Positions 7,861 to 56,009 of a stretch of 64,000 nucleotides of DNA are shown piece by piece. The stretch lies in the NCBI RefSeq assembly GCF_020164455.1, contig NZ_JAIQWW010000009.1:62001-126000 (forward strand), in the 5' to 3' direction. The notes beneath the pieces were generated by a model. The model was given only the letters and a program-made list of their open reading frames with translations. It had not been told where the DNA came from and made no database searches. The DNA comes from Phyllobacterium chamaecytisi. Lineage in GTDB: Bacteria; Pseudomonadota; Alphaproteobacteria; Rhizobiales; Rhizobiaceae. Position numbers and translations under genes: made by a program. How positions within the stretch are numbered: the stretch's first letter is position 1; every line of letters begins with the position of its first letter.

Positions 7861-8173
7861 GTTATGGCAACGATCTCCGAGGGTTTGCTCGCGACAGGGC
7901 GCGAAACTCGGATCGAGTTGGACCGTAAAACCCAAGGCGGGATCGATGACTGCAACAAGTCCAACTTGGATTTACGATCGCGGCTTTTGGTAAAAAACCG
8001 TGAGGACTGGACTTGATGTGAAGCAAAGTTGGCGGGCCTTTCATGCCCATTAGTGGGTTCAAGCGGTTCTGTCCTTTATGAAGACTTCAACAGTGCTTTT
8101 TCGCTTTCGGCCAATTCGGCTCGCAAATTTCCGACCGCGCCTAGCACTCGATTTCTGTTGAATAAATGAGACT

Positions 8174-10971
<2,798 letters not shown>

Positions 10972-36722: not shown

Positions 36723-37166
36723 TTAGACCCCTCTCGCTGATATGAGGCCTCGTGGGCGAAATTTGACGAACACAATAGCCAATACGAATACAAGGACGTC
36801 GGCAATCACTGGTGACATCACCCAGAGCAGTGCGGCGCTAAGCGTGCCAATCACGCTCGCGCCGGCAAGCGGGCCTGCGAACGATCCGACGCCGCCCACC
36901 GTGACGGCGACGAAGCCTTGAATGAGAAAACGGATGCCTAGATCCGAGAATAGCGAGAACACCGGCACGATCAGAGCGCCAGCGAGACCGGCCAGCGCAG
37001 CTCCAAATGCAAAGGTGATGCTGTAAATGGTATGGCTCGATATGCCTGAGGCACGCGCGAGTGATGGCTTCTCTAAAGAAGCGCATATGCGCAGTCCAAA
37101 CGAGGTGCGCGCGAGCAGAACATAGCAAGCAGCCATTACAAGCAAGTGACGATGACGATCCCGCAA
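36723..37166 (-). pseudogene. LivH-type branched-chain ABC permease, C-terminal remnant
   Basis: 147 codons matching only the C-terminal half of a LivH/HAAT permease: RTSFGLRICASLEKPSLARA, SITFAFGAALAGLAGALIVP, FLIQGFVAVTVGGVGSFAGP and a final FRPRGLI. The N-terminal membrane spans are missing, and the bases upstream (37167-37260) encode nothing related. It is a leftover of a deleted branched-chain/urea-type transporter. Confidence 0.75.
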
Positions 37167-37263
37167 CGCCAGACAGTTACTGCGGTCTCCGAAACATGAG
37201 GCGTCATTGAGATCTCCATCCAGGTGACGGAAGGCGACAGCAGCAAACTGCCGCCTTCTTCGC

Positions 37264-38649
37264 TCAGAGGCCGGCGCGGATTTCTTCAGCCAGCGCCTTC
37301 AGCGTGGTCTCCACGTCGGCGCCGTTGACCATCTTCTGCATGGCGACCGCCCAGGCATTCACCGCCTCGCTGAACCCTACGCGCGGGGTGAACTGTTGCT
37401 TTGCCCGGTCCTGGGTCGCCTTGAAGCTTTCGACATAATTGTTGAACTCGGGCTTGGCTGCATAAGCAAGCCAGGTTTTGTCATCCCACGTCGACCTGCG
37501 AGCTGGATTCCCAAGCTTTCCAGCGACGGCGCCATTTAGATCCACCTGCTTTGACGTCGCCCACTCTATAAACAGCCAGGCCGCGTCCTTCTTCTGGGAT
37601 GCCGCATTCATTGCCAGCGACCAAGTCCAAATGTTGGATTCGAAGTTCTTCGCGTTCGGAGCGTGGAGCGGCGGAGCAAAGGCGATCTTTCCGGATGCAG
37701 GCTTGCCAGCGACATCGCTCCAGAAGCCAAACATATTCGAATCGATCGCCATGGCCGTGCGGCCGGACGAAATGCCATCGACAACCTGGTACCAATTGTC
37801 GTTAGCAAAGGATGGCGCGGCGCACTTCTTGATCATGTCCACGTAGTCTTTGTGGAAAGTGATGGATTCTGGGGAATCAAGTCCAGTGTCGAGCTCGCCA
37901 TTTTTCACGAAGAAGTCTTGCACGCCGTAGGATTTCGCGATCGAAATGGGCGCGGTATGGATGCTGCTCCAAAAGCGGACCCCGCGGACGCCGAGCGGGG
38001 TGATCTTGGGATCGGCGGCCTTTAAGGTATCACACGCCTTGCCCATCTCTTGGGGCGTCGTCGGTACTGCGACATTGTACTTGTCAAGGATGTCCTTGCG
38101 GTAGAGAAGCTGGATATTCTCGAACGCGTTTGGAATTGCCCAAACCTGCCCGTTGTCATCAGGCTTGATCTGGCCATCCTGGATGCTCCATGTCAGAGCG
38201 TAACGGAGAGCGGGGAAGAAGTCGTCATAGTCGTAGTCGGACGCCGTAAGTTTCGGATCTTCCAGGTATTTGTTCAACGGCTCCAGAGCGCCGCCCGGCG
38301 CAAGATCCCATGCCGGCTGTATACCCGTGCCGACGACGTCCCACGCAGGCGATTTAGTCGTCAGCTGTATGGTCAGCTTGCTCCAATAGGTATCGTCGGG
38401 ATAGAGTTCCGGAACAACCTTGATGCCCGTCAACTTCTCAAATTCCGGTAGCTGAGCAGCAATCGCGTCAGCATATGGATGGATGTCATAGGCCCAGGTG
38501 ATTGACGTTCCTTCGAACTGACGCCAGTTCACGTTTTCAGCGGCGGCAGATGTTGCTATGCCTGTAGTTGCGAGCAATGCAGATCCTAGTACAATGCCCT
38601 TTGCAGTGCGCGCGGTGTTGCTGCAAAGGACGCTCAGTGAATTGTACAT
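37264..38649 (-). CDS. Extracellular solute-binding protein family 1 (sugar-type), orphan
   Basis: 461 residues from ATG 38649 (MYNSLSVLCSN), with GGGAGGAAAGA before it; the upstream ATG is not needed. It has a signal peptide to about ATSAAAENVNW, then TSITWAYDIHPYADAIAAQL, KLTGIKVVPELYPDD, GQVWAIPNAFENIQLLYRKD and WLFIEWATSKQ, typical of large sugar/polyol binding proteins of CUT1 importers. No permease or ATPase of that family is adjacent; the next gene downstream is a LivH scrap. Its promoter region duplicates that of the LacI gene next to it. Confidence 0.88.
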   Translation of the reverse strand: MYNSLSVLCSNTARTAKGIVLGSALLATTGIATSAAAENVNWRQFEGTSITWAYDIHPYADAIAAQLPEFEKLTGIKVVPELYPDDTYWSKLTIQLTTKSPAWDVVGTGIQPAWDLAPGGALEPLNKYLEDPKLTASDYDYDDFFPALRYALTWSIQDGQIKPDDNGQVWAIPNAFENIQLLYRKDILDKYNVAVPTTPQEMGKACDTLKAADPKITPLGVRGVRFWSSIHTAPISIAKSYGVQDFFVKNGELDTGLDSPESITFHKDYVDMIKKCAAPSFANDNWYQVVDGISSGRTAMAIDSNMFGFWSDVAGKPASGKIAFAPPLHAPNAKNFESNIWTWSLAMNAASQKKDAAWLFIEWATSKQVDLNGAVAGKLGNPARRSTWDDKTWLAYAAKPEFNNYVESFKATQDRAKQQFTPRVGFSEAVNAWAVAMQKMVNGADVETTLKALAEEIRAGL

Positions 38650-38713
38650 TCTTTCCTCCCTCGGCATTCAGCCAGATTGACATGGCTCACCTCTCCGTTC
38701 CCAGGTTTGCCAT

Positions 38714-39105: not shown

Positions 39106-40101
39106 TTAGACAATCACGCTGTCCCGTACTTTAATTTGGAATGGCAATGTAGTGGCATCGGGTGCGTGTTCCTGCAGACCAAATCGGTGAAGTAGAACAT
39201 CGATCGCTCGGCGCGCCTGGATCTCCAAATTTTCCTCAATAGCAATGGTCATTGTCCCATCCCTGAGCATAGTGGAGGTTTCACCGATGAGATCGTGACC
39301 AACAAAAGCGATGTTGCTTCTTCCATTTAATGCTTCGACCACCAGGCTATTTGACGCTCCCGCATTATAAACAGCGGCGATGTGGTTGGTTTCAATCAAT
39401 CTGTGACGCAACGATATGCGTGCTCTCACCTCATCCTCGCCTGCTTCTATGACTTCCGTGAGTGAAGCGTCTGGCCGATACTCCATAAGAGCCTCCCTGA
39501 AACCGCCGATTCGCTCAGAGTCGCCTCGATACTTCAGACTGTGGCACAGAACGACGCAACAACCTGCTGGCGGAATCATATGAGATAACAGAAATGCTGC
39601 CGCCCTGCCCGCTCGGTGATGATTTATACCAACATATGCCAACCTTGGGGCGGTCGGAAGGTCTGACATAATGGCAACAACCGGAACACCGGCTGAGGTA
39701 ACTGTCGCTATCGCCTCAAGGATAGCATCGTCTTCCTGCCCACACACGATAATAGCATCGCTTCTAGTTGTCGCAATTGCCTTTGCCAGCCGATTAGGTT
39801 TGGCGTGGTCTACGAACGTTCTTTGGATGATTACACTGTGGTTGACCAAAGGAATTAATTTTTCGAAAAATTCGTTCAGTTTTGCGAACAGCGGAACTTC
39901 TCGACGTCCCAGCAGCACCTCAAATCTGAGGTTGGTACGATAAACACTAGGAAGGCTTCTCACCCACCCCAGCTGTCGAGCAGCATCAATGACCTTTTTG
40001 GCCGTTGCAGGTGCGACACCACCGCGCTCGTTGAGCACGCGATCAACCGTTGCAAGACCAACCCTCGCCAGGCTCGCGACTTCATCTAGCTTTACCTTCA
40101 T
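39106..40101 (-). CDS. LacI-family transcriptional regulator
   Basis: 331 residues from ATG 40101 (MKVKLDEVASLARVGLATVD); upstream in-frame codons lie inside the repeat and are not used. HTH LDEVASLARVGLATVDRVLN with hinge KKVIDAARQLGW, then a type-I periplasmic-binding effector domain (DAIIVCGQEDDAILEAIATV, YVGINHHRAGRAAAFLLSHM, IAFVGHDLIGETS). It shares its duplicated promoter with the downstream binding-protein gene and lies beside the demethylase module, so it may control either. The effector is likely a sugar or polyol. Confidence 0.88.
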   Translation of the reverse strand: MKVKLDEVASLARVGLATVDRVLNERGGVAPATAKKVIDAARQLGWVRSLPSVYRTNLRFEVLLGRREVPLFAKLNEFFEKLIPLVNHSVIIQRTFVDHAKPNRLAKAIATTRSDAIIVCGQEDDAILEAIATVTSAGVPVVAIMSDLPTAPRLAYVGINHHRAGRAAAFLLSHMIPPAGCCVVLCHSLKYRGDSERIGGFREALMEYRPDASLTEVIEAGEDEVRARISLRHRLIETNHIAAVYNAGASNSLVVEALNGRSNIAFVGHDLIGETSTMLRDGTMTIAIEENLEIQARRAIDVLLHRFGLQEHAPDATTLPFQIKVRDSVIV

Positions 40102-40151
40102 CCTGCAGGGCTGCCATGATATAGGCTCGTAGCGATCGACGGATCGCGAAC

Positions 40152-40232
40152 CTGAAGGAATACCGAGGGAACAGGTACTATTTAAGAAAAGCCTGGATGG
40201 ATTTGGGTAAAATTGAGTAAGACTTGCCTGCA
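40152..40232 (+). repeat. Direct repeat copy 2, promoter region of the LacI gene
   Basis: Partner of 38714-38794; the identical 21-bp core is at 40201-40221. It ends 51 bp upstream of the LacI start, nearly the same spacing as copy 1 has to its gene, so the two genes probably have the same promoter and operator. Confidence 0.65.
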
Positions 40233-40399
40233 TAAATCAGCTTTTACAGGACCCTATTTTGCGAGCCCAATGAATCCGGACTGGAATGGGCTTTTTATAG
40301 GAATGGCGTCCTGTAAATCATCGGCATCTATATAGTTGCATCGAATATCCAGACAGCATCATATAAGGTCAGGCGACAACGGCTTAAAACGAGACTCTT

Positions 40400-41626
40400 A
40401 TGAAAAAGAAAATTGTGATTGTCGGGGCCGGCCATGCAGGCGGACGCGTCGCGCAAATACTTGCTGCGTCTGATCATGATCTTGACATCACTCTCATCGG
40501 ACGAGAGTCCGTTCCACCGTACAACAGACCGCCCTTGTCAAAAGGTGTACTTCTCGGCAAAAGCCAACTCGAGGATTGCTTGCTTTGGAGACCGGAAGAC
40601 ACGGCTTGGGACAAAGTCAGATTTCTGTCCGGCACCGCTGCAAAATCCATTCAGATCGAGAGTAGAACGTTGCTCCTCGATGATGGGACAAAAATATCCT
40701 ATGATTCGCTGGTTCTCGCGACGGGATCTCGCGTTCGCCATTTGACGGTTCCGGGCTCGGAAGCTGAGGGCGTACATGTCCTGCGAACATTCAAAGATGC
40801 GGTCAAAATCTCAAGGTATTTCAAGACGAGCAAGCGACTGGTGATAGTTGGCGGTGGGTTCATCGGCCTAGAAATTGCCGCTGCCGCATCCAGCATTGGG
40901 TTAAAGACGGTTGTGGTTGAGGCAACGGAGAGACTCCTTTCCCGAATTGCGCCAAGAAAAATTGGTGATGCTCTTTTAAGCCGGCATCAGAGACAGGGTG
41001 TAGAATTCCGTTTCAGCTCTATGGTCGAACGATTCCTACTGAGTTCTTCCGGCAAGCTCAAAGGCGTTCTTCTTTCGTCCGGCGAATACATTCGGACCAA
41101 TCTCGCGGTCATGGGTGTCGGTGTTTCCGCAGAAGGCGCGTTGGCGAAGTCTGCGGGCCTCGAGGTCGACGTCGGCATACGCACGGGACAATCTTTGGAA
41201 ACCGCCGTGAACGGTATTTTTGCTTGCGGAGACTGTGCTTCCTTTTGGCATCCGCTATTCGAACGGCACATCCGAGTCGAAGCTTGGCAAAATGCTGAAG
41301 ATCACGCGCGCGTTGTCGCGAGCAACATCCTGGGGGAAGAAGCTGCATGCAACGCAGTTCCCTTCTTCTGGTCAGATCAATATGAGCTTTCGATGCAGAT
41401 TGTTGGCTTGCCCCACCTTGCATCATCGGCGATTGCAAAGCATCTTGGCGCCTCCACTCTTCTCTACCATGTTGATGCGCTTGGGAGACTTGTGGGAACG
41501 ACTGGCTTGGGCGATTCAGGTGATATCGGGAAGCATATTCGAGCAGCGCGACATGCAATCGCTGCTCGTGCCCACCCAAGATTTTCTGCACTTCAAGACG
41601 GCGTCGCTGAAGACATATTTCTTTAG
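40400..41626 (+). CDS. Ferredoxin reductase, NAD/FAD-dependent (second copy, convergent)
   Basis: A 408-residue reductase of the rubredoxin/putidaredoxin-reductase type. FAD motif IVIVGAGHAGGRVAQIL at 4-20, ESVPPYNRPPLSKGVLLG, NAD motif LVIVGGGFIGLEIAAAA near 147, FACGDCASFWHP near 275, and QNAEDHARVVASNILG. It would move electrons from NADH to the MocE ferredoxin encoded convergently 6 bp away. It is a clear paralogue of the reductase at 44073-45398. Its promoter lies in the 40233-40399 gap, apart from the main operon. Confidence 0.9.
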   Translation: MKKKIVIVGAGHAGGRVAQILAASDHDLDITLIGRESVPPYNRPPLSKGVLLGKSQLEDCLLWRPEDTAWDKVRFLSGTAAKSIQIESRTLLLDDGTKISYDSLVLATGSRVRHLTVPGSEAEGVHVLRTFKDAVKISRYFKTSKRLVIVGGGFIGLEIAAAASSIGLKTVVVEATERLLSRIAPRKIGDALLSRHQRQGVEFRFSSMVERFLLSSSGKLKGVLLSSGEYIRTNLAVMGVGVSAEGALAKSAGLEVDVGIRTGQSLETAVNGIFACGDCASFWHPLFERHIRVEAWQNAEDHARVVASNILGEEAACNAVPFFWSDQYELSMQIVGLPHLASSAIAKHLGASTLLYHVDALGRLVGTTGLGDSGDIGKHIRAARHAIAARAHPRFSALQDGVAEDIFL

Positions 41627-41632
41627 ATCGTT

Positions 41633-41962
41633 TCACCCAATTTGCACAAACACAGTTCCGTTCTCGACTTTAGCTGAGTAAGTTTTCAGTCGATTGCACG
41701 CAGGTGGATTCAGTGCTTCACCCGTGCGAAAGTCGAAGCAGCCGGCGTGGCGTGGACACTCCACCGTCGTCCCCATCACAAAGCCATCGGAAATATGGGC
41801 ATATTCATGTGTGCAAATATCGTCGGTAACGAAGACCCTATCGTCCGCCGTTCGAAATACGGCGAAGCTCTTTGAGCCATGATCCCAGCGCTTGACATCT
41901 TCCTTTGGTAGTTCGTTGAGTTTGCAGGCCGCTACCCATGTTGCTGTATCAGTCATTTCCAC
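41633..41962 (-). CDS. mocE: MocE-family Rieske-type [2Fe-2S] ferredoxin
   Basis: 109 residues (GTG start; ATG two codons in also possible). Rieske ligands are clear: CTHEYAHISDG (Cys-x-His) and CPRHAGCFDF (Cys-x2-His). The pattern ADDRVFVTDDICTHEYAH and TGEALNPPACNRLKTY matches MocE, the ferredoxin of the rhizopine 3-O-methyl-scyllo-inosamine catabolic genes. It is the last gene of the minus-strand operon 46434-41633 and would carry electrons from a ferredoxin reductase to the di-iron oxygenase encoded first in the operon. Confidence 0.85.
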   Translation of the reverse strand: MEMTDTATWVAACKLNELPKEDVKRWDHGSKSFAVFRTADDRVFVTDDICTHEYAHISDGFVMGTTVECPRHAGCFDFRTGEALNPPACNRLKTYSAKVENGTVFVQIG

Positions 41963-41997
41963 GCCTCATTTTGACAGTCCATAGTTGCTGTTCGGCC

Positions 41998-43125
<1,128 letters not shown>

Positions 43126-43188
43126 TTATTTTCCTATCTACTAATATTATCGCTCATTTCATAAAACGAATAATGCAACGATGTACGG

Positions 43189-44025
43189 CTATGGACCATT
43201 CAAACCGTCCCATCGATCCCGGACGAGGTCGCGCATCATCAAAGCCTCGGACCAACGATCGGTCGTGTCATTGCCGTCGCGCCCTGTAATGGCGTAGGGC
43301 TTCGGACCTAGTTCACACACGAATGCCAGAGTCGCATTTGGGTCTGCGCGCCCCATCCAACTCTTGAAGCCGTACTCCCACCAGCCCAGAAAAAGATCGA
43401 GCCAGGGCTTATGATGAGGAAAGGAAATTTCGATCTGGACCTGTTCTCGACTCGCGACGCGTCCATGAAACGCCCATGAATTGTCAAGTATTCGTTTGAT
43501 GTAACCGTCATCTGTCTCATTGATCGGCCAGGCGAATTCCCGACCGACCAGAAAGTGCGACACATCGCCGAGAAGTTTCAGGTCTGGGAAACAATCCAGT
43601 AAATCCAGCGTGAAGTAGAGGTCGGTGGTCATTCGGTCGCGATGGGTTTCTATATAGACAGGAAAGTCCACTTCCTCGGCCAGCCTGCGCCAACCCTCCA
43701 GCAAAGGAATACAGTCTTGAATCCGACGCGGTCTAACGTCGGGCTGGATGTCGAGATGGTGCAGTCCGCTCTCGACGGCATTTTCGAGCACCGGCTTCAA
43801 ATCATCAACGGTTTTGGGGAAGCACTGACCTTCGGCCCGTAAGCCGGACGCCCTGAGGAGAGCCGACATGCGTCTTACCTGCTGTGGATCTCTCCAGTCG
43901 GCGCTTATGCCGTCAAAGCCTGCGGCGTGTATTTTTTCGATTTTCTGCTCAACCGATGCCTCATAGCCATCGCTGTGTCGACGCTCCATCGCCCACATTG
44001 ATTGAAAAACTAAAAGCTTCTGCAT
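43189..44025 (-). CDS. Xylose-isomerase-like TIM-barrel protein (candidate MocC/IolE-type)
   Basis: 278 residues from ATG 44025 (MQKLLVFQSMWAMERRHSDG), preceded by GGGAGGACCT. AP-endonuclease-2/sugar-phosphate-isomerase fold: KIEKIHAAGFDGISADWRDP, VYIETHRDRMTTDLYFTLDL, and LKLLGDVSHFLVGREF supply the metal-binding Glu, Asp and His. Inositol and rhizopine catabolic loci contain such proteins (IolE, MocC), which dehydrate or isomerise inosose-type ketones. The neighbours support, but do not prove, the MocC comparison. Confidence 0.75.
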   Translation of the reverse strand: MQKLLVFQSMWAMERRHSDGYEASVEQKIEKIHAAGFDGISADWRDPQQVRRMSALLRASGLRAEGQCFPKTVDDLKPVLENAVESGLHHLDIQPDVRPRRIQDCIPLLEGWRRLAEEVDFPVYIETHRDRMTTDLYFTLDLLDCFPDLKLLGDVSHFLVGREFAWPINETDDGYIKRILDNSWAFHGRVASREQVQIEISFPHHKPWLDLFLGWWEYGFKSWMGRADPNATLAFVCELGPKPYAITGRDGNDTTDRWSEALMMRDLVRDRWDGLNGP

Positions 44026-44072
44026 AGGTCCTCCCAAAACGCCGTCCTCTGGCCACCTGATCCGATGGATCG

Positions 44073-45398
44073 TCAGGCCACCACCGCAGGAACAATCAGA
44101 CTTCTAAGGTCAACGGTGTAATCACAAAGATCACCAACGCCCGGAGTGAGCATTCGTTGAATCATAAGCTGGCCAAAACGAACGCCACGCCCGACCTCCC
44201 GGAGCGAGCCAAATCCACTAACCCCTGCTATGTGGCCAGTCTCTGTCATATGGAATAGCAATAATGAACCGTCCAGGCAGACGCGCTCGGTGATGAAAGG
44301 TCCCCTTGCTGGGAATCCAGCTATTTGGATAGTGCTTTCGTACTGATCGGACCACATCCATGGCGAAGTTGAGTAGATCTGTTCGCCGCCGAGCATGTTT
44401 TTGGCGACCACGTAGGCTTGATCCTCGGCGTTCTTCCAACATTCGAGCCGAATCCGTTCACCCGACGCCTCGTCCGCAAACGAGCAGGCGTCACCTGCCG
44501 AATAGATTGAGACATCACTGGTTCTCAGGTACTTGTCAACGGCAATCCCATTGTCAATATCCAAGCCTGCGGCTTGAGCTAGGGAAACCCTTGGCTCAAC
44601 GCCTACGCTAATCAGGACGACGTCGCACTCCAAAATCTCCCCGGTACTCAACCGCAAAGATGAGACATTATTGACACCATTAATTTCTTTAACAGCGCAA
44701 CCAAGTTTGAAGCACACGCCTTCTTTTTCGTGGCGAAGTTTCGCTGCCAGCGCGATCTTTTCCGGCACGGCCCGGTTCATCAAACGGTTTGCGAGCTCTA
44801 CTACGGTTACGTCACACTTCCTTGCGATAGCGCTTGCTGCAGCCTCGAGGCCAATAAGACCGCCGCCGACAATCACGACCTTTGCACTCTCCTGCAGCCA
44901 ACTCGCGAGTCTATTCGCGTCAGAAGCAGAGCGAAGGAAGGAAATCTTACCTAAATCACTTCCTATGACGTTGAGACGTCGAGGCTCAGCGCCAGGCGCC
45001 AAGAGCAGCCGATGGTAGGGAAGCTCCGCACCATTGGAAAGCTCAATCAGATGCGAATTCCGATCAATCGAAAGCGCAGTGGTATCGCGAATATGCTCGA
45101 TACCATTGGCAGCAAAGAAACCGTCGACAAGAATCGGATATTTTTCGAAGCTGTTGGTGCCGGACAGAACCGCCTTCGAAAGGGGCGGCCTTTCATAGGG
45201 CATAGCGTCTTCGCTTTCCACGATTGTCAGCTTTCCGCTCCATCCGTTCTTTCGCAAGGCCTCTGCGGCGCGAGCACCCGCGTGGCCTGCGCCGACTATG
45301 ACCATTCCATGTTCGGACAAGTTCTTCTCCACAGGTGCGTCGTTAAGAGTAAAGGTGGATGTCGGCCAATCTTCCGCCTGGCCGACATCAGACTTCAT
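44073..45398 (-). CDS. Ferredoxin reductase, NAD/FAD-dependent (operon copy)
   Basis: 441 residues from ATG 45398 (TTG one codon earlier). A 30-residue N-terminal extension precedes the FAD motif MVIVGAGHAGARAAEALRKN. AMPYERPPLSKAVLSG, VVIVGGGLIGLEAAASAIAR, YSAGDACSFADEASG and KNAEDQAYVVAKNMLGG follow. It belongs to the same family as 40400-41626. In the operon it lies between the oxygenase and the TIM-barrel genes, the position expected for the reductase (MocF role) of a three-component oxygenase. Confidence 0.9.
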   Translation of the reverse strand: MKSDVGQAEDWPTSTFTLNDAPVEKNLSEHGMVIVGAGHAGARAAEALRKNGWSGKLTIVESEDAMPYERPPLSKAVLSGTNSFEKYPILVDGFFAANGIEHIRDTTALSIDRNSHLIELSNGAELPYHRLLLAPGAEPRRLNVIGSDLGKISFLRSASDANRLASWLQESAKVVIVGGGLIGLEAAASAIARKCDVTVVELANRLMNRAVPEKIALAAKLRHEKEGVCFKLGCAVKEINGVNNVSSLRLSTGEILECDVVLISVGVEPRVSLAQAAGLDIDNGIAVDKYLRTSDVSIYSAGDACSFADEASGERIRLECWKNAEDQAYVVAKNMLGGEQIYSTSPWMWSDQYESTIQIAGFPARGPFITERVCLDGSLLLFHMTETGHIAGVSGFGSLREVGRGVRFGQLMIQRMLTPGVGDLCDYTVDLRSLIVPAVVA

Positions 45399-45435
45399 CA
45401 AATTCGAGAGTCTGCAGCCGTATGACCTGACTGCT

Positions 45436-46434
45436 TCATGAAGAAGGCGGGCGTTTTTTCTTGAAGCGCTCGTTCATTGCAGCGTGAGCTTCTGCTGTCC
45501 CATTATGCCAGGTACCAAACCAGCGATCAAAGGGAACCGAGCCATCACCGCCGTAGTTCACTTCAAAATAGCGGTGGTGCAGATAGTGCATATAGGTCGC
45601 CAAATCTATCTCGACCTTTCCGTTCACGACCATCCGACCGAAGGCACTGTGGTCAGGGGCAGGAGCGAAGTTGAGGTGCACAAGGTGATAAACCACCAGC
45701 AATGGGTTCGAGTAGATGACCCACTGGATGAGAACACTGGAATAGTAGATCACGTGTTCGATTGGGTGCATCGACAACCCCGACCAAGGAGTGGGGTTGG
45801 AATTTCGGTGATGCACGCTGTGGGCCAGCTTATATAGTAGCGAGGAGTGCATCAGGCGATGAACCACATAGAAGTGCGCTTCGCGCCAGAATGCGACCAA
45901 AAACATGCACATACCGAAATAGACCGGATGCGCCTCCATATCCAGATACGGTATGTAGCCATTTGCCATTGCCCAAAATGTGACCACCTCGTAGGCGGTC
46001 CAAATTGGAACCCCGCTGAACAACGTCCAAAACATGTTGTCAAAGAGCTGTTTGCCGAACAGGAACGTTTCGCTGTCCTTCGGCCAGCGTGCGTTGTACT
46101 TGAAATCAGTACCCTGCGACCGCCTTACGTAGAGTCGAATGTGCCAAAAACTGGTCCAAACCAGGAGAATAATAAAGTTCTGGATGAACAGATTGGATAT
46201 CCACCCGACCTCGAAATTTTTCATCTGCTGGAGATCAGGTATCAGGAACCACCAGATACCCACGGAAACGAGCATGTAAAAGGCATTATAAGGGAAAAGA
46301 TATCCCCCCCAGCCAAAAATAAATTTGAGAAAGGCGCCTGGTTTCGGCGGCCAAACAAACACAGGAGGCGTTTCGACAACAGGTGGTATCCACCCACCAG
46401 TATCGGGTCTATCAGCGTCACTTATATCTGCCAT
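45436..46434 (-). CDS. Fatty-acid-hydroxylase/sterol-desaturase-family di-iron oxygenase
   Basis: 332 residues from ATG 46434, with GGAGGAG upstream (an earlier in-frame start is not needed). Membrane spans lie near 45-65, 85-110 and 140-165. The histidine boxes of the superfamily are seen as HFYVVHRLMH, HSVHHRNSN and HYLHHRYFEV. Members hydroxylate sterols and lipids or cleave ethers (alkylglycerol monooxygenase). With a MocE ferredoxin, a reductase and formaldehyde dehydrogenase downstream, O- or N-demethylation of a methylated sugar, polyol or amine is the simplest reading. The substrate is unknown. Confidence 0.85.
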   Translation of the reverse strand: MADISDADRPDTGGWIPPVVETPPVFVWPPKPGAFLKFIFGWGGYLFPYNAFYMLVSVGIWWFLIPDLQQMKNFEVGWISNLFIQNFIILLVWTSFWHIRLYVRRSQGTDFKYNARWPKDSETFLFGKQLFDNMFWTLFSGVPIWTAYEVVTFWAMANGYIPYLDMEAHPVYFGMCMFLVAFWREAHFYVVHRLMHSSLLYKLAHSVHHRNSNPTPWSGLSMHPIEHVIYYSSVLIQWVIYSNPLLVVYHLVHLNFAPAPDHSAFGRMVVNGKVEIDLATYMHYLHHRYFEVNYGGDGSVPFDRWFGTWHNGTAEAHAAMNERFKKKRPPSS

Positions 46435-46858
46435 TTTTTCTCCTCCCATGGCGTTTGGTGCCCGCATAGTGAGCGGTATAACTCAAGTCGATGATTACTC
46501 TTGAAGAAATATACTGCCAGTCGGAATTTGAGGGTTTCCCCTCATTCTCAGCTTCACGCTGTTCGGGAAGCCCTCAAAACTTGCTCCATCCGAACTCAAA
46601 TGCTTGAACATCGTACATTTCCAAAGTTCGGGAACCGAGGCCTTATATAAGTTCCTGTTGTTGTCGTAGGTACACGTGCGCGCGCGAATCGGTCGCGCCA
46701 GATCTCGATTACCTCGGCGTCGTCCAGGTGTTCCCACGATCCACTGCATTTAGGGCTGCGGGGTACCATCCCACAATCCGTGCTTACGCAGTCGAAGGGC
46801 GTTTCCATCAGACTGTACCGGGCGGTAACGTCATCTCTTACTGCTACCCAATCGCCAG
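46435..46858. other. Promoter region of the oxygenase operon
   Basis: A 424-bp gap. TGAG-cggtataa-CTCA at about 46470 is a short imperfect palindrome that could be an operator. Open frames here (for example 46596-46862 on the minus strand) have no ribosome-binding site or recognisable features and overlap the next gene's end; I do not call them genes. Confidence 0.35.
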
Positions 46859-48370
46859 TCAAATGTCCGACAAATCCTCCGGCAGCATCTCATCCGGAAT
46901 GTTTTGATAGCAGACGGGGCGCAGAAAGCGGCGGATCGACAGTGTGCCGACGGAAGTTGCACCGAAATTTGTTGACGCAGGATACGGGCCGCCATGAACC
47001 ATCGCGTCGCATACTTCGACGCCGGTTGGATAGCCGTTTGCCAAAATGCGGCCTGCCTTTCGCTCGAGGATCGGCATCAGTTTTTTCGCTTGAGGACCGT
47101 CCGCATCGTCCATGTGGACCGTCGCGGTAAGCTGACCTTGGAAACTGCGGGCGATCTTTTCCATTTCGCCAAGATCCTCGACCATGACGACGAGACCGAG
47201 CGGACCAAAAATCTCCTCGCCGAGAACGTGGTTCGCAAGCCAATTCGCGCCGGAAGTCAGGAACAAATACGGCGTCGCGTTCCTCAGGTCGCACATCGAG
47301 GTCAGGACTTCCCGGACCCCACCTGTGGCACGAATGCTGTCGCGCCCGCTGCGATATGCAGCCGCAATGCCATCGGTCAGCATGGTCTGCGCACCGATGG
47401 GCTCAAGCGCTGCGACAGCGGCGTTGACGAATGCATCCGCGTCACCGCCCTTGACCATGACGACAACGCCGGGATTCGTGCAGAACTGCCCAGCACCCAG
47501 GGTGAGCGAACCGGCCCAGCCCTTGGCAATGGCCTCGCCGCGCGCTTTCCCTGCAGTGGGCATCACGAACATCGGATTGACGGAGCCGAGCTCGCCGAAG
47601 AAGGGAATGGGTTCGGGTCTGCCGGCGCACAGGTCGAACAGGGCCCGTCCGCCGCCCAACGATCCGGTGAAACCGACAGCCTTGATCAGCCGATGCTTGA
47701 CCAGGCTCGAGCCAAGCTCGCGGTTGTTCCCCTGAAGCAGCGAGAACGTGCCCGGGTGAATCCCGGTCGCCTTTATAGCCGCATCGATTGCCTGGGCAAC
47801 GATCTCGCCAGTGCCGGGATGGGCGGAGTGGCCCTTGACGACGACGGGACAGCCAGCGGCGAGCGCTGCGGCGGTATCGCCGCCCGCCGTCGAAAACGCC
47901 AGCGGAAAATTCGACGCGCCGAAGACTGCGACAGGGCCGACAGGCCGTTCCATCAGCCTGATATCCGGCCTCGCTAGAGGCTGCCCGTCGGGCAGAGCGG
48001 CGTCGCGCCGGCGGTCGAGATAGTCGCCCTTCTCGATATGGCTTGCGAACAGGCGCAGCTGGCCGGTGGTGCGGCCGCGCTCGCCTCGAAGCCTCGCGCC
48101 GGGCAGTCCCGTTTCGGCTGAGCCTATCTCAGTGATCGCTTCGCCGCGCGCCTCGATCTCGTCAGCGATGCGGTTGAGAAAAGCGGCGCGCTCCGCTCGT
48201 GTCGAATAGCCGTAGGACCAGAAGGCGTCTTCGGCTGCGGCTGCGGCTCGTTCGACTTCGGTAGGCCCGGCGACGGCATAGCTGCCTGCCGAACCCTCTG
48301 CCGGCTCGGAGGAAAACATCGTCTCTCCGCCAACCCATTCGCCTGCGATCAAGTGTTTGCCAGTCAGCAT
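46859..48370 (-). CDS. 2-Oxoglutarate semialdehyde dehydrogenase, NADP-type (KGSADH III)
   Basis: 503 residues from ATG 48370 (MLTGKHLIAGEWVGGETMF), with AAAGGAGCG upstream. It is the long ALDH subfamily with FGASNFPLAFSTAGGDTAAA, FTGSLGGGRALFDLCAGRP, catalytic Glu in FGELGSVNPMFVMP, Cys in GAGQFCTNPGVVVM, and HVLGEEIFGPLGLVV. This subfamily converts 2,5-dioxopentanoate to 2-oxoglutarate in pentose, aldarate and hydroxyproline pathways. Downstream of a 2-keto-3-deoxyarabonate dehydratase-like gene, it completes a non-phosphorylative route. Confidence 0.9.
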   Translation of the reverse strand: MLTGKHLIAGEWVGGETMFSSEPAEGSAGSYAVAGPTEVERAAAAAEDAFWSYGYSTRAERAAFLNRIADEIEARGEAITEIGSAETGLPGARLRGERGRTTGQLRLFASHIEKGDYLDRRRDAALPDGQPLARPDIRLMERPVGPVAVFGASNFPLAFSTAGGDTAAALAAGCPVVVKGHSAHPGTGEIVAQAIDAAIKATGIHPGTFSLLQGNNRELGSSLVKHRLIKAVGFTGSLGGGRALFDLCAGRPEPIPFFGELGSVNPMFVMPTAGKARGEAIAKGWAGSLTLGAGQFCTNPGVVVMVKGGDADAFVNAAVAALEPIGAQTMLTDGIAAAYRSGRDSIRATGGVREVLTSMCDLRNATPYLFLTSGANWLANHVLGEEIFGPLGLVVMVEDLGEMEKIARSFQGQLTATVHMDDADGPQAKKLMPILERKAGRILANGYPTGVEVCDAMVHGGPYPASTNFGATSVGTLSIRRFLRPVCYQNIPDEMLPEDLSDI

Positions 48371-48463
48371 GCGCGACGCTCCTTTCGGTCTGCAATTCAA
48401 GAATGCAGGATTTCGCTCCCGCCTCCCATCGGATTTACCGGCGAGCAATTCAAGTTGAATGTC

Positions 48464-49384
48464 TTATTTGCCCCATTTTAGCGCAAGCACGTCGAGTTCG
48501 CGGGCAAGAGACAAAAGCCGTGCCTTTGTGCGGTCGGACATAGGCTTCAGCGGATGGCGGACGTAGTCGCTTTTGATGACCCCGCCTTCCATCATCACCG
48601 TCTTGGCGGCGCGAAGGCCACACTGACGGTTCTCGTGATTGATCAGCGGCAGGCATGTCTCCCATTGCCTGAGCGCCGCATCGAGATTACCGGCGCGGTG
48701 CTCTAACACGATGGGACGGATCTTTTCAGGGAACATGGCCGACGTCATTGTACCGGTGCATCCCGCGTCCAAATCGGCAAGCAGCGTGACGGCTTCCTCG
48801 CCGTCGAACGGCCCAACGATGTCCCTGCCACCCTGTTCGATCAGTGCCGCCAGCTTGTCGGCGGCAAAGGGAGTTTCGATCTTGAAGTAGGATACATTCT
48901 CGATCTGCTTCGCCATGCGGGCGAGCAGCGGAACCGGCAGAACCACGCCCGAAAGCGGCGCATCTTGTACCATGATCGGGGTCGAGATGGCGTCAGAGAC
49001 GGCTTGGAAGTGTTCAATGATGCCCTGTTCGGCGGGCACGAGACCGACTCCATGATAGGGCGGCATCATCATCAGCATAGAGGCGCCGAGGCTTTCGGCG
49101 TATTTTGCGCGGTCCACTGCGATCTGTGTGGAGAAATGCGAGATTGTTACGATGACAGGCACGCGACCGGCGATGTGTTCGAGGGAGATACGAGTGAGTT
49201 TCGCACGCTCCTCGTCCGACAGCACGAACTGCTCGGAATAGTTAGCGAGAATACATATGCCGTCGACACTTTGATCGATCATGCAGTCGAGGACTCGGCG
49301 CATCCCCTCTTCGTCCACGGTGCCATTGACGTTAAAGGGTGTTGGGGCAACCGGGAGGATCCCGGTTAACGGAGCCTGGATCAT
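48464..49384 (-). CDS. DHDPS-family dehydratase, L-2-keto-3-deoxyarabonate dehydratase-like
   Basis: A 306-residue class I aldolase-fold enzyme. GICILANYSEQFVLSDEERA, HIAGRVPVIVTISHFSTQIA, MMMPPYHGVGL, the Schiff-base Lys in VSYFKIETPFAADKL, GPFDGEEAVTLLADLDAGCT and LINHENRQCGLRAAK match L-2-keto-3-deoxyarabonate dehydratases of non-phosphorylative L-arabinose breakdown, which give 2-oxoglutarate semialdehyde. The next gene product oxidises that semialdehyde. No arabinose dehydrogenase or arabonate dehydratase is nearby, so the true precursor may differ. Confidence 0.85.
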   Translation of the reverse strand: MIQAPLTGILPVAPTPFNVNGTVDEEGMRRVLDCMIDQSVDGICILANYSEQFVLSDEERAKLTRISLEHIAGRVPVIVTISHFSTQIAVDRAKYAESLGASMLMMMPPYHGVGLVPAEQGIIEHFQAVSDAISTPIMVQDAPLSGVVLPVPLLARMAKQIENVSYFKIETPFAADKLAALIEQGGRDIVGPFDGEEAVTLLADLDAGCTGTMTSAMFPEKIRPIVLEHRAGNLDAALRQWETCLPLINHENRQCGLRAAKTVMMEGGVIKSDYVRHPLKPMSDRTKARLLSLARELDVLALKWGK

Positions 49385-49407
49385 TTAGGTTCTCTTTCGT
49401 GGTTGCG

Positions 49408-51123
49408 TCACAGTGTTTCCAGCCGGGCAAAGAAACTACCCGTTGGGTCGTTCCTGTCGATGATCTGGCTGAGCGCCAATTTGGTCTCCGACGCGGGGGC
49501 GTCTTTTCGATAATGGCTTCCACGACTTTCCTTCCGGTTCAGCGCGGCGCGTGCCATCATCCGTCCGCATTCGATTAGATTGTCGGTTTCGATCAAATGC
49601 ACGAACGCGTCGCGCGTGGGTGCGTCAGTGTCTGTCTTGAGGATGTCTTGCAGGTTATCAAGCTCATTCAGCAGAGCCCGCAATCCGGCTTCGTCGCGTA
49701 TGACAAGGAGGTTGCGATTCGCTGTCATCTGTAGCCGTGCGCGAACTTCGGCGCCCGTATGCGCGCCAGTGCGCCGGAAGCCTGCAAGATACTCCTCCTG
49801 TTCGGCAATCGCCTTCGGCACTTCTGCTAGAGAGATCTTCTTTGCCCTTGCCGCCGCAGCTTTGCCTGCGCGCGCTCCGAACACTTGGCAGGTCATCGCC
49901 ATGTTGCCGCCAAGACGATCCGCTCCATGCGGGCCTGCCGCCGTCTCGCCGGCCGCGAAAAGCCCCTGGAGCGAGCAGTCCCCGTCGAGCCCGATGCGCA
50001 GTCCCCCGTTGATCGCATGAGCGGAACAGGTGACCTGGACGGCATCCTTGTAAAGGTCGGCCCCCCGCTCCTTGTACCAGTCATATGTTAGGGGCCACAT
50101 ACGTGAAATCGAATGGCTCTTGTCATTCAGGACGGTCTCGAAATCGGTTCCGAGGAAATCGAGGTACACGCCCCCTTTGTCCGTCGCACGGCCCTCATTC
50201 ACGGCATTCTGGATCGAAACCTCGACAAAACGGGAGATATCGGAAGACGAGAAAGGAAAATGTCGTTCTTTTTCCGCGTATACTTCTCCGACAGAAAGGC
50301 CCGACGGCATGTAATCCGTCAAGAATGGCTGACCGTCCCTGTCGGTCAGTGATGGCGATGCGGCCCAGAGATAATTTCCGAATAAGTTGATGAACGGATC
50401 GATGATGCTGACGCCAGCCTGCATGAATTCCATGTTCGCAAGCTGCGCGCCGGCACGCCAGGCCATTGCGTAGCCGTCACCGGTGATGTCGGACGGGTAA
50501 AGGTTAGTAGCGAACAACTGACTAGCGCCGCCGGTCGTCATGATGACAGATTTTGCGCGAACGATAACTGGCTCCCCTTTTTCGTCCAACGCGAACACTC
50601 CGTGACAGGTGTTCTCCAAGGTCAAGAGTCCAACGACCATCGTTTTGTCGATGACTTTGATTCCCCGGCGACTGGCCTCCTGGCCAAGTGCTTTGACGAT
50701 CGGCTTGAAATGATCTTTGATCACGTGCGACCGCGGCTTCGACGAGAAACAGGCTCGGAATGCCAGGTAGTTGTCGTCTTGACGTTCAAAGTGCACGCCA
50801 TACTTCTCGAGGAAATGCAGCGCGGATTCGGCCTCGTTGACCAGAACGTCGACCAACCGGCTGTCGGCCACACCCTGTGCTGCGGACAAGATATCGCCAC
50901 GAAATACCTCTGGGTTGTCGGTCGAGTCTCCAGCCCCGTCAGGCACGTTGAAGGCTCCGACCTCGGCGACGCTGTGAAAGGTGGCGCCGCTCTTGCTAAA
51001 GGCGCTCTTCACCAGGACCAGCACGTCGGCGCCCGCGTCGCTTGCGGCCAGAATTGCCCGAAGTGCAGCCCCGCCGCTGCCAACGACCAGAACATCCGTT
51101 TCAATGGTCCGATGGTTTTTCAT
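49408..51123 (-). CDS. FAD-dependent oxidoreductase, succinate dehydrogenase/fumarate reductase flavoprotein-like
   Basis: 571 residues from ATG 51123, with GAGGAG upstream. N-terminal FAD motif TDVLVVGSGGAALRAILAAS, flavin-contact SAFSKSGATFHSVAEVG, capping-domain DWYKERGADLYKD, and C-terminal FAD stretch LQGLFAAGETAAGPHGADR then LGGNMAMTCQVFGARAGKAA. It resembles SdhA/L-aspartate-oxidase-type flavoproteins, but no iron-sulfur or membrane partner is present. It may oxidise or reduce an alpha,beta bond of an acyl intermediate, matching the CoA-transferase and enoyl-CoA hydratase in the same locus. Confidence 0.85.
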   Translation of the reverse strand: MKNHRTIETDVLVVGSGGAALRAILAASDAGADVLVLVKSAFSKSGATFHSVAEVGAFNVPDGAGDSTDNPEVFRGDILSAAQGVADSRLVDVLVNEAESALHFLEKYGVHFERQDDNYLAFRACFSSKPRSHVIKDHFKPIVKALGQEASRRGIKVIDKTMVVGLLTLENTCHGVFALDEKGEPVIVRAKSVIMTTGGASQLFATNLYPSDITGDGYAMAWRAGAQLANMEFMQAGVSIIDPFINLFGNYLWAASPSLTDRDGQPFLTDYMPSGLSVGEVYAEKERHFPFSSSDISRFVEVSIQNAVNEGRATDKGGVYLDFLGTDFETVLNDKSHSISRMWPLTYDWYKERGADLYKDAVQVTCSAHAINGGLRIGLDGDCSLQGLFAAGETAAGPHGADRLGGNMAMTCQVFGARAGKAAAARAKKISLAEVPKAIAEQEEYLAGFRRTGAHTGAEVRARLQMTANRNLLVIRDEAGLRALLNELDNLQDILKTDTDAPTRDAFVHLIETDNLIECGRMMARAALNRKESRGSHYRKDAPASETKLALSQIIDRNDPTGSFFARLETL

Positions 51124-51133
51124 GGTACGCTCC

Positions 51134-52660
51134 TCACTGGAAATGACGTCTCGCCATTTCAGCAAGCTGATCTGAAACGGTGACTTCAAACGGGATTTGC
51201 TCGAGTACGTCGCGACGGACGTCTATTCCGGGCGCTACTTCAAAGAGTTCGAGACCTCCGCCGATTAGTCGGAAAACCGCGCGTTCAGTTATATATTTGA
51301 CCGTCTGACCCTTGCCAGTGGCAACCTGGGCGTTAAACGTGATCTGTTCGACATCGGGCACGAACTTGGAGAAGCGGCCCTCAGAGTGGATGTTCAGCCT
51401 TCCTGACTCTGTCGAGATATCCAGACCACCGGCATTGAACGACCCACAGAACGTCACGCGGGGCGTCCGACTTACGATATCGATGAAACCCCCGCATCCG
51501 GGGATGATGCCGTTGAACTTGCTGACATTCACGTTGCCGTAGGCGTCGATCTGACCACAGCCCAGAAATGTCGCATCAAGCGCCCCGCCCTGGAAAGAAT
51601 CGAATACGCTGGTGCTGTCGATGATCGCGTCGGGATTTATGTTGGTTCCGAAAATGGCGCGTTCGCCTGGAACTCCTCCGATAGAGCCATGCTCCGGGAA
51701 AAAGGTTGTGTGAGGGCATGTGGCGTATTCATGCAGGATAGCGGGAATCTCGATCGGCATCCCGACCCCAAGATTGACAGTTTCTCCATCGCTTATTTCC
51801 TCGGTGGCTCTGCTTGCAATAATCCTGGCGACGCCCTTCCCGACCAATCGCATACTGTTCAAGGGCAGGCGGTATTGTCCGGTCAGAAAGGGATTCATAG
51901 CGCCACCGGAAATGGCTTGATCCGGAACAACGACAATCGCGTCAACGAAAATCCCGGGAATTTCGACCATCCGGGGATGTATCGTTCCCGCGCGGGTCAC
52001 CCGCCGGACCTGAACGATGACCCTTCCCCCAGACGCCTTGGTTGCCTGTGCGATGGCACGGGCCCCGAGAGATACGGGTTCGTCCTCGAAACTGATATTC
52101 CCGTTTTCGTCGGCGCAAGTTCCACGAATGAAGGCGACATCGATTGGAAGCGCCTCGTAAGCCAAATGGGTTTCGCCCTCGATCTCAATCCGGCGCGCAA
52201 GTGACGTCTTGGCTGCTCCGTTTACACGGCCGCCTTCGATCTCAGGATCGACAAACGTGCCCAGCCCGACCGAGGTAATGGTGCGCGATCTCCCGGCAGC
52301 ACGATCGCGGAGCATCTGGAAAATGGTACCCATCGGTAGGATATGCGCTTCAAAGGCGTCTTCTTTCAGAAGAGCAGTATATTTCGATGTTTTCAGAAAA
52401 CTAAAACTGCTGCCTATCGCCCGAGCGACAAGTCCTCTGTGCGCCAGAGATTCAAGGCCGCGTCCTTCGCCCATGCCGACGACAACAGGGTGCAATTCCG
52501 TCAAATTTCGCGGAGACCCGGTGTCGACGAAGCGTTGGCCGAGGGCAGACAGCAAAGCCTCGGGTGCGAGGACATTTTCGCAGCCGCCAATGGCCAGGAC
52601 GTTGCTGTCCGAAACAAGCTCGGCTGCCTCACCGGCCGTCAGTATTTTTACAATTTTCAT
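51134..52660 (-). CDS. Acyl-CoA:carboxylate CoA-transferase, fused alpha and beta subunits
   Basis: A 508-residue family I CoA-transferase with both subunit domains in one chain: N-terminal alpha part (SDSNVLAIGGCENVLAPEAL) and C-terminal beta part (DGETVNLGVGMPIEIPAIL) with the catalytic Glu in FFPEHGSIGGVPGE. It activates a carboxylate by taking CoA from another acyl-CoA. AGGAGAAAAA precedes ATG 52660. It is 10 bp upstream of the flavoprotein gene and divergent in function from the sugar-acid genes behind it. Confidence 0.9.
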   Translation of the reverse strand: MKIVKILTAGEAAELVSDSNVLAIGGCENVLAPEALLSALGQRFVDTGSPRNLTELHPVVVGMGEGRGLESLAHRGLVARAIGSSFSFLKTSKYTALLKEDAFEAHILPMGTIFQMLRDRAAGRSRTITSVGLGTFVDPEIEGGRVNGAAKTSLARRIEIEGETHLAYEALPIDVAFIRGTCADENGNISFEDEPVSLGARAIAQATKASGGRVIVQVRRVTRAGTIHPRMVEIPGIFVDAIVVVPDQAISGGAMNPFLTGQYRLPLNSMRLVGKGVARIIASRATEEISDGETVNLGVGMPIEIPAILHEYATCPHTTFFPEHGSIGGVPGERAIFGTNINPDAIIDSTSVFDSFQGGALDATFLGCGQIDAYGNVNVSKFNGIIPGCGGFIDIVSRTPRVTFCGSFNAGGLDISTESGRLNIHSEGRFSKFVPDVEQITFNAQVATGKGQTVKYITERAVFRLIGGGLELFEVAPGIDVRRDVLEQIPFEVTVSDQLAEMARRHFQ

Positions 52661-52868
52661 TTTTTCTCCTGAGTCACAAGCACTACGGCTCGATCAAGCC
52701 CATTGGACGTTGTTGAGGTTTGCCAAGCGATCTTGCTAAGGGGGCAGGGAGTTGCGCGGTACCTCGTCGATCGAGCGGCGTGCGAACTTTTGATCCCGCG
52801 TTTCTTTTCCATTTTGTCCTGTTTCCCCGCAAAAAATACACGGCTCTCTGGATTCGACGCTTAGTTCC

Positions 52869-53645
52869 TCAAACTTCCACGCCAACGTGGCGTAGGAATT
52901 CCTTCGTTCTGCCCTCGGTCGGGTGTTTGAAAATATTGTCTGGTCGGCCTTCCTCGATGACCCGTCCTTTGTCGAAAACCATGATCCAGTCACTGACGCG
53001 GCGCGCAAAACTCATCTCATGGGTCACGACAATCATGGTCATTCCCTCGCCAGCGAGATCAGACATGACGCTCAAGACTTCGCCCACGGTTTCCGGATCC
53101 AATGCCGACGTCGGTTCGTCAAACAGCATCACTTCGGGGCCCATTGCCAAAGCTCGCGCGATCGCAATCCTTTGCTGTTGCCCGCCGCTCAGCATCGAGG
53201 GATAGCTGTGCGCTTTTTCGACAAGTCCGACTTTCTTCAGAAGCGAGTAGGACAATTCTTCGGCCTCGCGTTTCGGCATGCCGAGAACCGTGACCGGGGC
53301 ACAATTGATGTTTTCGATGGCGGTCATGTGCGGGAATAGTTCAAAACTCTGAAAAACCATTCCCATCCGTCGTCGCACCAGCCTGACGTTATTTTCACCT
53401 TTGGGTAGCGGCGCGCCATCGAAGATTATTTCACCGCCGTTGATCTGCTCAAGTGCATTGGTACACCGAAGCAGAGTCGACTTCCCGGAGCCCGACGGAC
53501 CGATCAAGCAGACAACCTCGCCTCTGTTGACTTCGGCCGTCACTCCATTCAGTGCCGTGAAGTCGCCGTAGCACTTTTCCACATTGTTGTAGGTGACTAT
53601 TGGCGGCTTGCCGATTGCGTTTCTTTGATGATCCATACGGCTCAT
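52869..53645 (-). CDS. Polar amino-acid-type ABC transporter ATP-binding protein
   Basis: 258 residues: Walker [14 protein letters not shown]-loop [14 protein letters not shown], signature [18 protein letters not shown], Walker [13 protein letters not shown]-loop [14 protein letters not shown]. Its ATG overlaps the permease stop (ATGA). It completes the importer encoded by 52869-55918. Confidence 0.92.
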
Positions 53646-54298
53646 TCCTTCACCTCATATTTCCTATTCAGCCAATCGACCAACTTTGCCTGCGGATATC
53701 CGAGGCACCAGTAAATCGCAGCCATCGCCGTCAGAATTTCGAATATGCGGAAGCTTTCTGCCCTGGCCTGAAGCGACACATAGGACAATTCGCTCACCGC
53801 GATCACAGAGACGAGGGACGTGTCCTTGAAAAGCGAGACCCAAGTGTTGCTGAATGCTGGCAGGACCCGACGGAGCGCTTGTGGCAGGATAACTTTTACT
53901 TGCAATTGCCATTTGCTCATACCTAAGGCCAGTCCAGCGTCGCTCTGGCCTTTCCGGATTGAATTGACGCCGGCGCGAAATGTCTCAGAATTGTAGGCCG
54001 AGACAATGAGCGAGAGGGCCACCACGCCGGTGAGAAACGGCGGCAGATGGACGCCGAATCGCGGCATAACGTAGAAAATCCAATAGACGAGCAAGATGAG
54101 TGGCGTCGCTCTGAAGGTCTCTACGTAAACTGTGGCAATTCCCCGCAAAGCCCGCACCGGAGAATTTCGCATGAGCATGATCACGATTCCTCCGGGGATC
54201 GCGACCAACATCGTAACCACAGCCAGCAAAACGGTGTTCATCACGCCGAAAAGGAAAGCCCACCGGTATTCCCAGACTATCGACCAATCGAGATTCAT
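53642..54298 (-). CDS. Polar amino-acid-type ABC permease
   Basis: A 218-residue membrane subunit: [40 protein letters not shown] and the EAA-type loop [20 protein letters not shown]. Start and stop overlap both neighbours by four bases (ATGA), so the three genes are translationally coupled. Confidence 0.92.
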
Positions 54299-54960: not shown

Positions 54961-55090
54961 TTCATCCTCCATATGCAAACAACGCGGTCGCGAGAGGCCA
55001 TCTCGGGCATACAGCAGCCTGCCCGAGATAATCACGACTGATTTTGTCCAAGACAGACCGCCGTGCGCGACCTCAAGCGCAGTTCGAAAC

Positions 55091-55918: not shown

Positions 55919-56009
55919 TTTGGTCTCTCCTCCTCATTTCGCCGAATTGGTCGGCCGAATTTCCATTTGACTGGCGTTCGCTACTCCCCGATCGCCGCGA
56001 AACTTAGCT

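Follow-up and report, generated by a model that had tools for sequence, protein, structure and literature searches.

We analyzed a window of 64,000 nucleotides from the genome of Phyllobacterium chamaecytisi (6.36 Mb in 93 contigs, the window being part of contig 89), and in particular a minus-strand operon (46434-41633) that probably encodes an oxidative demethylase. As presented in Table 1, this operon encodes, in the order of its genes, a di-iron oxygenase (hereafter DES), a ferredoxin reductase, a TIM-barrel protein (TIM), a glutathione-dependent formaldehyde-oxidizing dehydrogenase (FDH) and a MocE-type ferredoxin, and the frame coordinates leave 34-63 bases between neighboring genes. The longest DES frame covers 45436-46467; the start at 46434 agrees with that of the S. 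medicae relative in the alignment. The five genes named in an initial annotation of this DNA (oxygenase, reductase, TIM barrel, FDH and MocE) were all recovered by frames together with profiles or a model, as were the LacI regulator and the sugar-type binding protein that it had placed near the operon (PF00356/PF13407 and PF01547 matches). The same annotation had described a single minus-strand operon over 40400-46434, which held for 41633-46434 and failed for 40400-41626: the second reductase encoded there is on the plus strand and convergent, and therefore lies outside the operon.

Table 1. Features of the oxygenase operon and of its neighborhood (window coordinates).
Feature	Position	Strand	Evidence or remark
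DES, PF04116 di-iron oxygenase, proposed O-demethylase	45436..46434	-	PF04116 70.4 bits, cut-off 31
NAD(P)H:ferredoxin reductase similar to HcaD/AndAa, proposed to supply MocE with electrons	44073..45401	-	Pyr_redox_2 + Reductase_C
TIM, xylose-isomerase/epimerase fold class	43189..44037	-	Predicted model
FDH, S-(hydroxymethyl)glutathione (class III) dehydrogenase	41998..43125	-	TIGR02818 589.2 bits, cut-off 543.95
MocE-type Rieske [2Fe-2S] ferredoxin	41633..41962	-	TIGR02377 164.7 bits, cut-off 136.15
Second ferredoxin reductase	40400..41626	+	Convergent with the operon, 6 bases away
LacI-type regulator, Peripla_BP_4 sensor domain	39106..40233	-	PF00356 + PF13407
CUT1-type sugar-binding protein	37264..38667	-	PF01547

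The membership of DES in PF04116 holds both on the profile cut-off and on its conserved histidine clusters. In an alignment of 32 sequences, the histidine-rich motifs HRxxH, HxxHH, MHPxEH and HxxHH were invariant, and the invariant columns include H203, H207, H216, H219, H220, H234, H238, H294, H297 and H298; we take these histidines to be the iron ligands. The predicted model (predicted local distance difference test score, pLDDT, of 86) is mostly helical with long helices. Its comparison with solved structures, proposed as a check in the initial annotation, gave no usable result. DES (PF04116) did not align with the MocD oxygenase of the same genome (PF00487; E 0.60). On the DES tree, the window sequence clusters with those of loci L003, L130 and L052 with a support of 100, and the presence of TIM changes eight times, at least five of these changes being forced by starred branches; TIM thus accompanies several DES lineages. 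Concerning the partners of DES, the operon reductase scored 326 bits against the HcaD model, under the cut-off of 450, and FDH is a class III equivalog by its TIGR02818 score. On pSymB of S. meliloti Ak57 (L071:14001-15008), the DES label is split over two frames with no annotated feature, possibly a broken gene.

The predicted TIM model consists of eight alternating strands and helices, and thus has the xylose-isomerase-like TIM-barrel fold of IolE. However, it was equally close to D-tagatose 3-epimerase, UlaE, IolE, Art22 and DgpC, and the protein matched no NCBIfam and no Pfam family at E <= 0.001; we assume that NCBIfam includes an IolE model. Since there was no family match and the fold was equally near five different enzymes, the label of inosose-dehydratase-like protein given in the initial annotation is unsupported.

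We then considered the distribution of the module. DES relatives, counted at E <= 1e-40, were found in 41/397 sampled genomes of the order and 62/394 of the family; TIM, counted at E <= 1e-60 with close and distant forms together, was found in 26/394 genomes of the family and 19/398 of the phylum. The 26 TIM places of the family sample comprised 22 close and four distant ones, and by coordinate comparison all 22 close places had a DES place no more than about 5 kb away. S. medicae (L003) has LacI, DES, reductase, MocE and TIM in one place, as does Mesorhizobium amorphae (L036), which has FDH in addition; because the set recurs in these two species, the grouping of the genes is not due to chance. 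Both DES and TIM are also carried by S. meliloti Ak57, S. fredii NGR234, R. tropici CIAT 899, Shinella, Bradyrhizobium guangzhouense and P. phymatum (pBPHY01). At the cut-offs used, neither was found in the seven other genomes of the genus in the family sample, so the module is patchy. The S. meliloti strains ml56 (pSymA, L065) and 1021 (L072) have the LacI, DES and MocE labels, to which ml56 adds a binding protein and a reductase; the TIM label is absent from both loci, and strain 1021 matches just 52% of the ml56 stretch.

The oxygenase beside TIM was found to vary. Among 45 deduplicated loci with a close TIM (50-72% identical to the window protein, median 62), 34 carried DES, eight MocD, one both (Jiella, L060) and two neither, a ratio that is biased because most of these loci were fetched via DES; in the 35 loci bearing DES, its identity to the window DES was 36-68% (median 41). 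In the phylum sample, picked by TIM, the 13 close places comprised five with DES, seven with MocD and one with neither, and six of the seven distant places had a distant MocD. In Caballeronia SBC2 (L213), MocD (PF00487), MocE, reductase, TIM (68% identical to the window TIM), LacI and ribose-type ATP-binding cassette (ABC) transporter genes follow one another in order. MocD, MocE, reductase, TIM and LacI were together in seven genomes (L217 and L219-L224), with ribose-type ABC genes again beside the set in L217. Overall, the DES and MocD families are interchanged while the neighboring TIM, MocE, reductase and LacI genes stay the same.

Both oxygenases were present in one locus in the marine loci L020 and L022, in L056, in L060 and in L109, an arrangement compatible with either a doubly methylated substrate or a pair of related ones; in L056 (R. 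leguminosarum Vaf-108), DES is beside a MocD-like gene, with iolE and iolD near. Of the two loci with neither oxygenase, L215 (R. leguminosarum BT01, 6910-10855) has TIM directly preceded by a cytochrome P450 together with a pair of small ferredoxins and a reductase. The nearest plasmid relative of this P450 outside its own record, from Rhodococcus ruber, is 52% identical, and its nearest solved relatives are of the CYP125/CYP124 types. For this reason, we rejected it as a known sugar demethylase; L215, a single record, therefore illustrates another oxygenase beside TIM, not O-demethylation. In the other, L218, the scanned proteins, none of them an oxygenase, were a sugar transporter, a regulator of the LacI type and an enzyme of the acetamidase type. 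Separately, L225-L234 pair a distant TIM (37-41%) with a distant MocD (27-34%), without MocE, in several genomes. The distant MocD was found in seven of ten distant TIM loci at a cut-off of 27%, an eighth reaching 26.8%; of the inspected loci L225 and L232, the pair in the latter adjoins polyamine-type ABC genes.

The genome of P. chamaecytisi contains other sets of this kind. A second PF04116 operon, on contig 78, comprises genes for an AraC-type regulator and, over L053:6609-13667, for a PfkB kinase, a PanB-like protein (named after ketopantoate hydroxymethyltransferase), DES, MocE, a reductase, PurU and FolD, and is a folate-route version of the same idea. Contig 16 (L055:8355-14186) carries a MocD-MocE-reductase set with a PanB-like gene, LacI and a TIM-barrel gene matching AP_endonuc_2; this set is immediately followed, on the other strand, by genes resembling those of the glycine betaine monooxygenase GbcB/GbcA, whose matches are below cut-offs. 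On contig 1, MocD adjoins MocE. Both MocD proteins of this genome are PF00487 members; a single genome therefore pairs one type of ferredoxin with two families of oxygenase.

To count one-carbon genes, 153 DES loci were reduced to 142 by merging at a DES identity of 97%, and the 8 kb on either side were searched by tblastn; 62 of these loci carry MocE and 80 do not. The controls were 40 windows of 17 kb at round coordinates in the same genome set. Among the 62 loci with MocE, we found FDH (cut-off of at least 55%) in 11, PurU in 6, FolD in 2 and a PanB-like gene in 20, i.e., any of these in 32, compared with 1/40 controls (FolD in one, FDH, PurU and PanB-like genes in none; Fisher p 5e-8). FDH occurred solely in loci with TIM (11/32) and PurU or FolD solely in those without it (7/30, six of the seven carrying a PanB-like gene). 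These results indicate that two formaldehyde-level carbon routes attach to the same kind of oxygenase. A second FDH copy scoring over the TIGR02818 cut-off is located on C56 and is 72% identical to the operon FDH. The idea of a module-specific FDH, drawn from identities of 87-95% between loci, was weakened by the presence of the same type (about 88% DNA identity) in other plasmid clusters; the FDH of further TIM loci is just 59-61% identical. A LacI homologue (at least 25%) was found beside 46/62 loci with MocE and 0/40 controls.

Taken together, the gene set, its conservation, the one-carbon enrichment and the exchange of PF04116 for PF00487 oxygenases beside shared partners agree with a MocE-linked oxidative demethylase of another oxygenase family than MocD, as the initial annotation had proposed. 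We consider that the operon probably demethylates, by oxidation, a methylated compound of polar character, the likeliest being an O-methyl sugar or an O-methyl cyclitol. Electrons would flow from NAD(P)H through the reductase and MocE to DES, which would hydroxylate the methoxy carbon to give a hemiformal, whose breakdown would yield formaldehyde and the free alcohol. After binding to glutathione, the formaldehyde would be oxidized by FDH, TIM would isomerize, epimerize or otherwise process the demethylated sugar or cyclitol, and the LacI regulator would sense the substrate. Regarding the substrate class, 12/80 DES loci without MocE carry at least two sugar-cluster genes (from a set of transporter, aldo/keto reductase, D-lyxose/D-mannose isomerase, polyol dehydrogenase, ROK kinase and Gig2-like genes) compared with 0/40 controls. 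A general claim that the marine relatives lie in sugar clusters was cut back to this count, and because it was just 12 of 80 we slightly lowered our confidence in a sugar or cyclitol demethylase. In the marine DES sugar cluster of L032, the Gig2-like gene (7294-8583) belongs to PF07350, and its relatives were found beside 5/80 DES loci without MocE.

Several observations weigh against the demethylation of an O-methyl sugar or cyclitol. The cut-offs of the one-carbon counts were picked after a first look, the loci share descent, and the reference proteins came from the window and from L053, both among the 62 (30/60 without them). Furthermore, in 30 of the 62 loci neither a one-carbon nor a PanB-like gene was present over the 8 kb, FDH accompanied just 11 of 33 loci with TIM, and the 80 loci without MocE had FDH and PurU in none, FolD in 2 and a PanB-like gene in 8. 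The sugar-cluster set was found in 0/62 loci with MocE, ribose-type binding proteins in 9/62 compared with 1/40 controls, a weak difference, and iolD/iolE beside 1/142 DES loci; on this last count, we rejected inositol as the specific substrate. A sequence search for a solved homologue of DES found none, and no operator shared by the DES promoter (46435-46859) and the LacI/second-reductase promoter (40234-40399) was found. Finally, sarcosine oxidase operons are a known case of PurU next to an enzyme that demethylates, and FolD and PurU also mark N-demethylation operons (PMC3691474, in part).

This last point leads to an N-demethylase of betaine or another N-methyl compound, with the same electron chain and the same formaldehyde clean-up, which we regard as unlikely but worth retaining. 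A close FDH relative accompanies gfa (S-(hydroxymethyl)glutathione synthase) and fghA (S-formylglutathione hydrolase) on a different plasmid, a setting that we count for the O-demethylation reading; in favor of N-demethylation, this cluster adjoins electron transfer flavoprotein (ETF), betaine-type ABC/transport and dimethylsulfoniopropionate (DMSP)-lyase-family genes; the GbcA/GbcB-like genes of contig 16 also adjoin a true mocDEF set. However, GbcA-like genes at 30% or more were beside 0/62 loci with MocE (L140 has one at 29.9%), and the frequent LacI homologues, the sugar-isomerase fold of TIM and the sugar clusters around some of the relatives without MocE also argue against it. A lipid or sterol hydroxylase, with FDH as a bystander, appears very improbable: PF04116 members of known activity act mostly on lipids and the long helices of the DES model are as in a membrane enzyme, but the Pfam and NCBIfam scans recognized no lipid gene in the operon, and neither the exchange of DES and MocD beside a constant TIM nor the one-carbon enrichment fits it. 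We give a similarly low probability to another oxidation in sugar or cyclitol catabolism, such as a ring or chain hydroxylation without methyl loss. The 30 MocE-bearing loci devoid of one-carbon genes are consistent with it, but the remaining half carries unrelated types of one-carbon genes that the controls hardly contain.

A true demethylase of rhizopine (3-O-methyl-scyllo-inosamine) replacing MocDEF is highly improbable. The MocE score, the design of the mocDEF set of the same genome and the MocD-like gene, iolE and iolD beside DES in R. leguminosarum Vaf-108 point in this direction. Against it, the adjacent regulator is of the LacI type and not MocR, the genome already possesses a MocD-MocE-reductase set, no Gfo/Idh/MocA match was found within 8 kb of the window DES, and the module is far wider than the rhizopine strains, whose producers are called a "select few" in a part of PMC10107442. 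A different view of TIM makes the operon a general demethylation cassette with a replaceable oxygenase, in which TIM is a dedicated part of demethylation and not a downstream sugar isomerase; TIM would then, for instance, split the hemiformal or hand on its one-carbon unit. This rests on PF04116, the PF00487 MocD and, in one locus, a P450 beside the same TIM, and on the alternation of TIM and PanB-like genes in the 62 loci with MocE (31 TIM only, 19 PanB-like only, one both, 11 neither). We judge it doubtful, and retain the demethylation of an O-methyl sugar or cyclitol, with TIM acting on its product, as the best explanation.

Around the operon, a homologue of the second reductase was found near DES in S. 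medicae (L003), S. meliloti Ak57 (L071), M. amorphae (L052), B. guangzhouense (L057) and also L130. The CUT1-type binding protein is 83% identical to one beside the DES/TIM module of B. guangzhouense (L057); its membership of the module is uncertain. No CUT1 permease genes are beside it in the window, whereas the B. guangzhouense relative has sugar ABC permeases. It adjoins a frame of 147 amino acids (36723-37166) that matches just positions 139-268 of the 269-position BPD_transp_2 profile, and the region 36723-38667 looks like the result of a deletion or rearrangement. A LacI operator common to the DES, LacI/second-reductase and sugar-binding protein promoters was dropped, the sole weak pair (DES and sugar-binding protein) having four differences. 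Upstream, the minus-strand genes at 46859-56774 (aldehyde dehydrogenase, dihydrodipicolinate synthase (DHDPS)-like lyase, fumarate-reductase-like flavoprotein, coenzyme A (CoA)-transferase, amino-acid-type ABC transporter and enoyl-CoA hydratase) are a separate catabolic cluster.

Plants and algal polymers commonly contain methyl ethers of sugars and inositols, ononitol being a plant O-methyl inositol. Pinitol, another methylated inositol, is reported in Lotus nodules (PMC8730688, in part). The enzymes removing such groups that turned up in our literature searches were P450s and the little-tested MocDEF. The same searches, which covered the titles and opening lines of abstracts of open-licence literature and were partly loosely worded, found no description of a module of PF04116, MocE and TIM or of a PF04116 O-demethylase. 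If our interpretation is true, many genes of rhizobia and related bacteria that carry the label "sterol desaturase family" would be sugar or cyclitol demethylases, and the exchange of oxygenases beside one TIM gene offers a direct, testable handle on the role of TIM.

Among known PF04116-type enzymes, alkylglycerol monooxygenase hydroxylates the carbon adjacent to an ether oxygen and thereby breaks the ether; unlike the operon's DES, it is eukaryotic and pterin-dependent and acts on a lipid ether. The closest tested chemical precedent is a P450 with ferredoxin and reductase from marine Flavobacteriia, which converts 6-O-methyl-D-galactose to galactose and formaldehyde (Reisky et al., 2018, via PMC10033563, in part). 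It resembles the operon in its oxygenase, ferredoxin and reductase with an alcohol dehydrogenase (ADH) gene near, but uses a haem P450 where the operon has a non-haem di-iron DES; in the same part of that source, no formaldehyde activity was detected for the ADH. In Mimosa symbionts, a "fatty acid hydroxylase" of the sterol desaturase/fatty acid hydroxylase superfamily is induced by root exudates and located on the symbiotic plasmids of P. phymatum, C. taiwanensis and R. mesoamericanum; it is described as less than 40% identical to other bacterial proteins and adjoins an endoglucanase gene in P. phymatum (PMC5789663, in part). The likeness to DES is by description: the superfamily is shared, and pBPHY01 of P. 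phymatum has a DES-TIM module.

MocDEF, for which a demethylation step was reportedly proposed, resembles the operon by its MocE ferredoxin (TIGR02377 over the cut-off), its ferredoxin reductase and its membrane-type di-iron oxygenase; the operon reductase is of the MocF type, with the same Pyr_redox_2 and Reductase_C domains as the reductase beside MocD in its own genome. It differs in that MocD is PF00487 and DES is PF04116, in that the operon has LacI instead of MocR, and in that TIM and FDH are added; for a mocA-type gene, neither GFO nor GFO2 matched within 8 kb of the window DES. Rhizopine catabolism in S. meliloti and R. leguminosarum is described as involving a ferredoxin oxygenase complex, MocDEF (Bahar et al., 1998, via parts of PMC10107442, PMC5132102 and PMC5789663). 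In P. syringae, mocDEF is followed by xylA2, a gene called xylose isomerase whose function is called unclear in a part of PMC5132102. This order is that of MocD, MocE, reductase and TIM in L219-L224, with MocD in place of DES and FDH absent beside L219-L224, and from this gene order, not from a sequence match, we infer that xylA2 belongs to the TIM family. Overall, the parts of the operon are ordinary, and what is new is the variant they form: a module resembling MocDEF but with another oxygenase, joined to an unassigned TIM barrel that remains the same when the oxygenase is exchanged.

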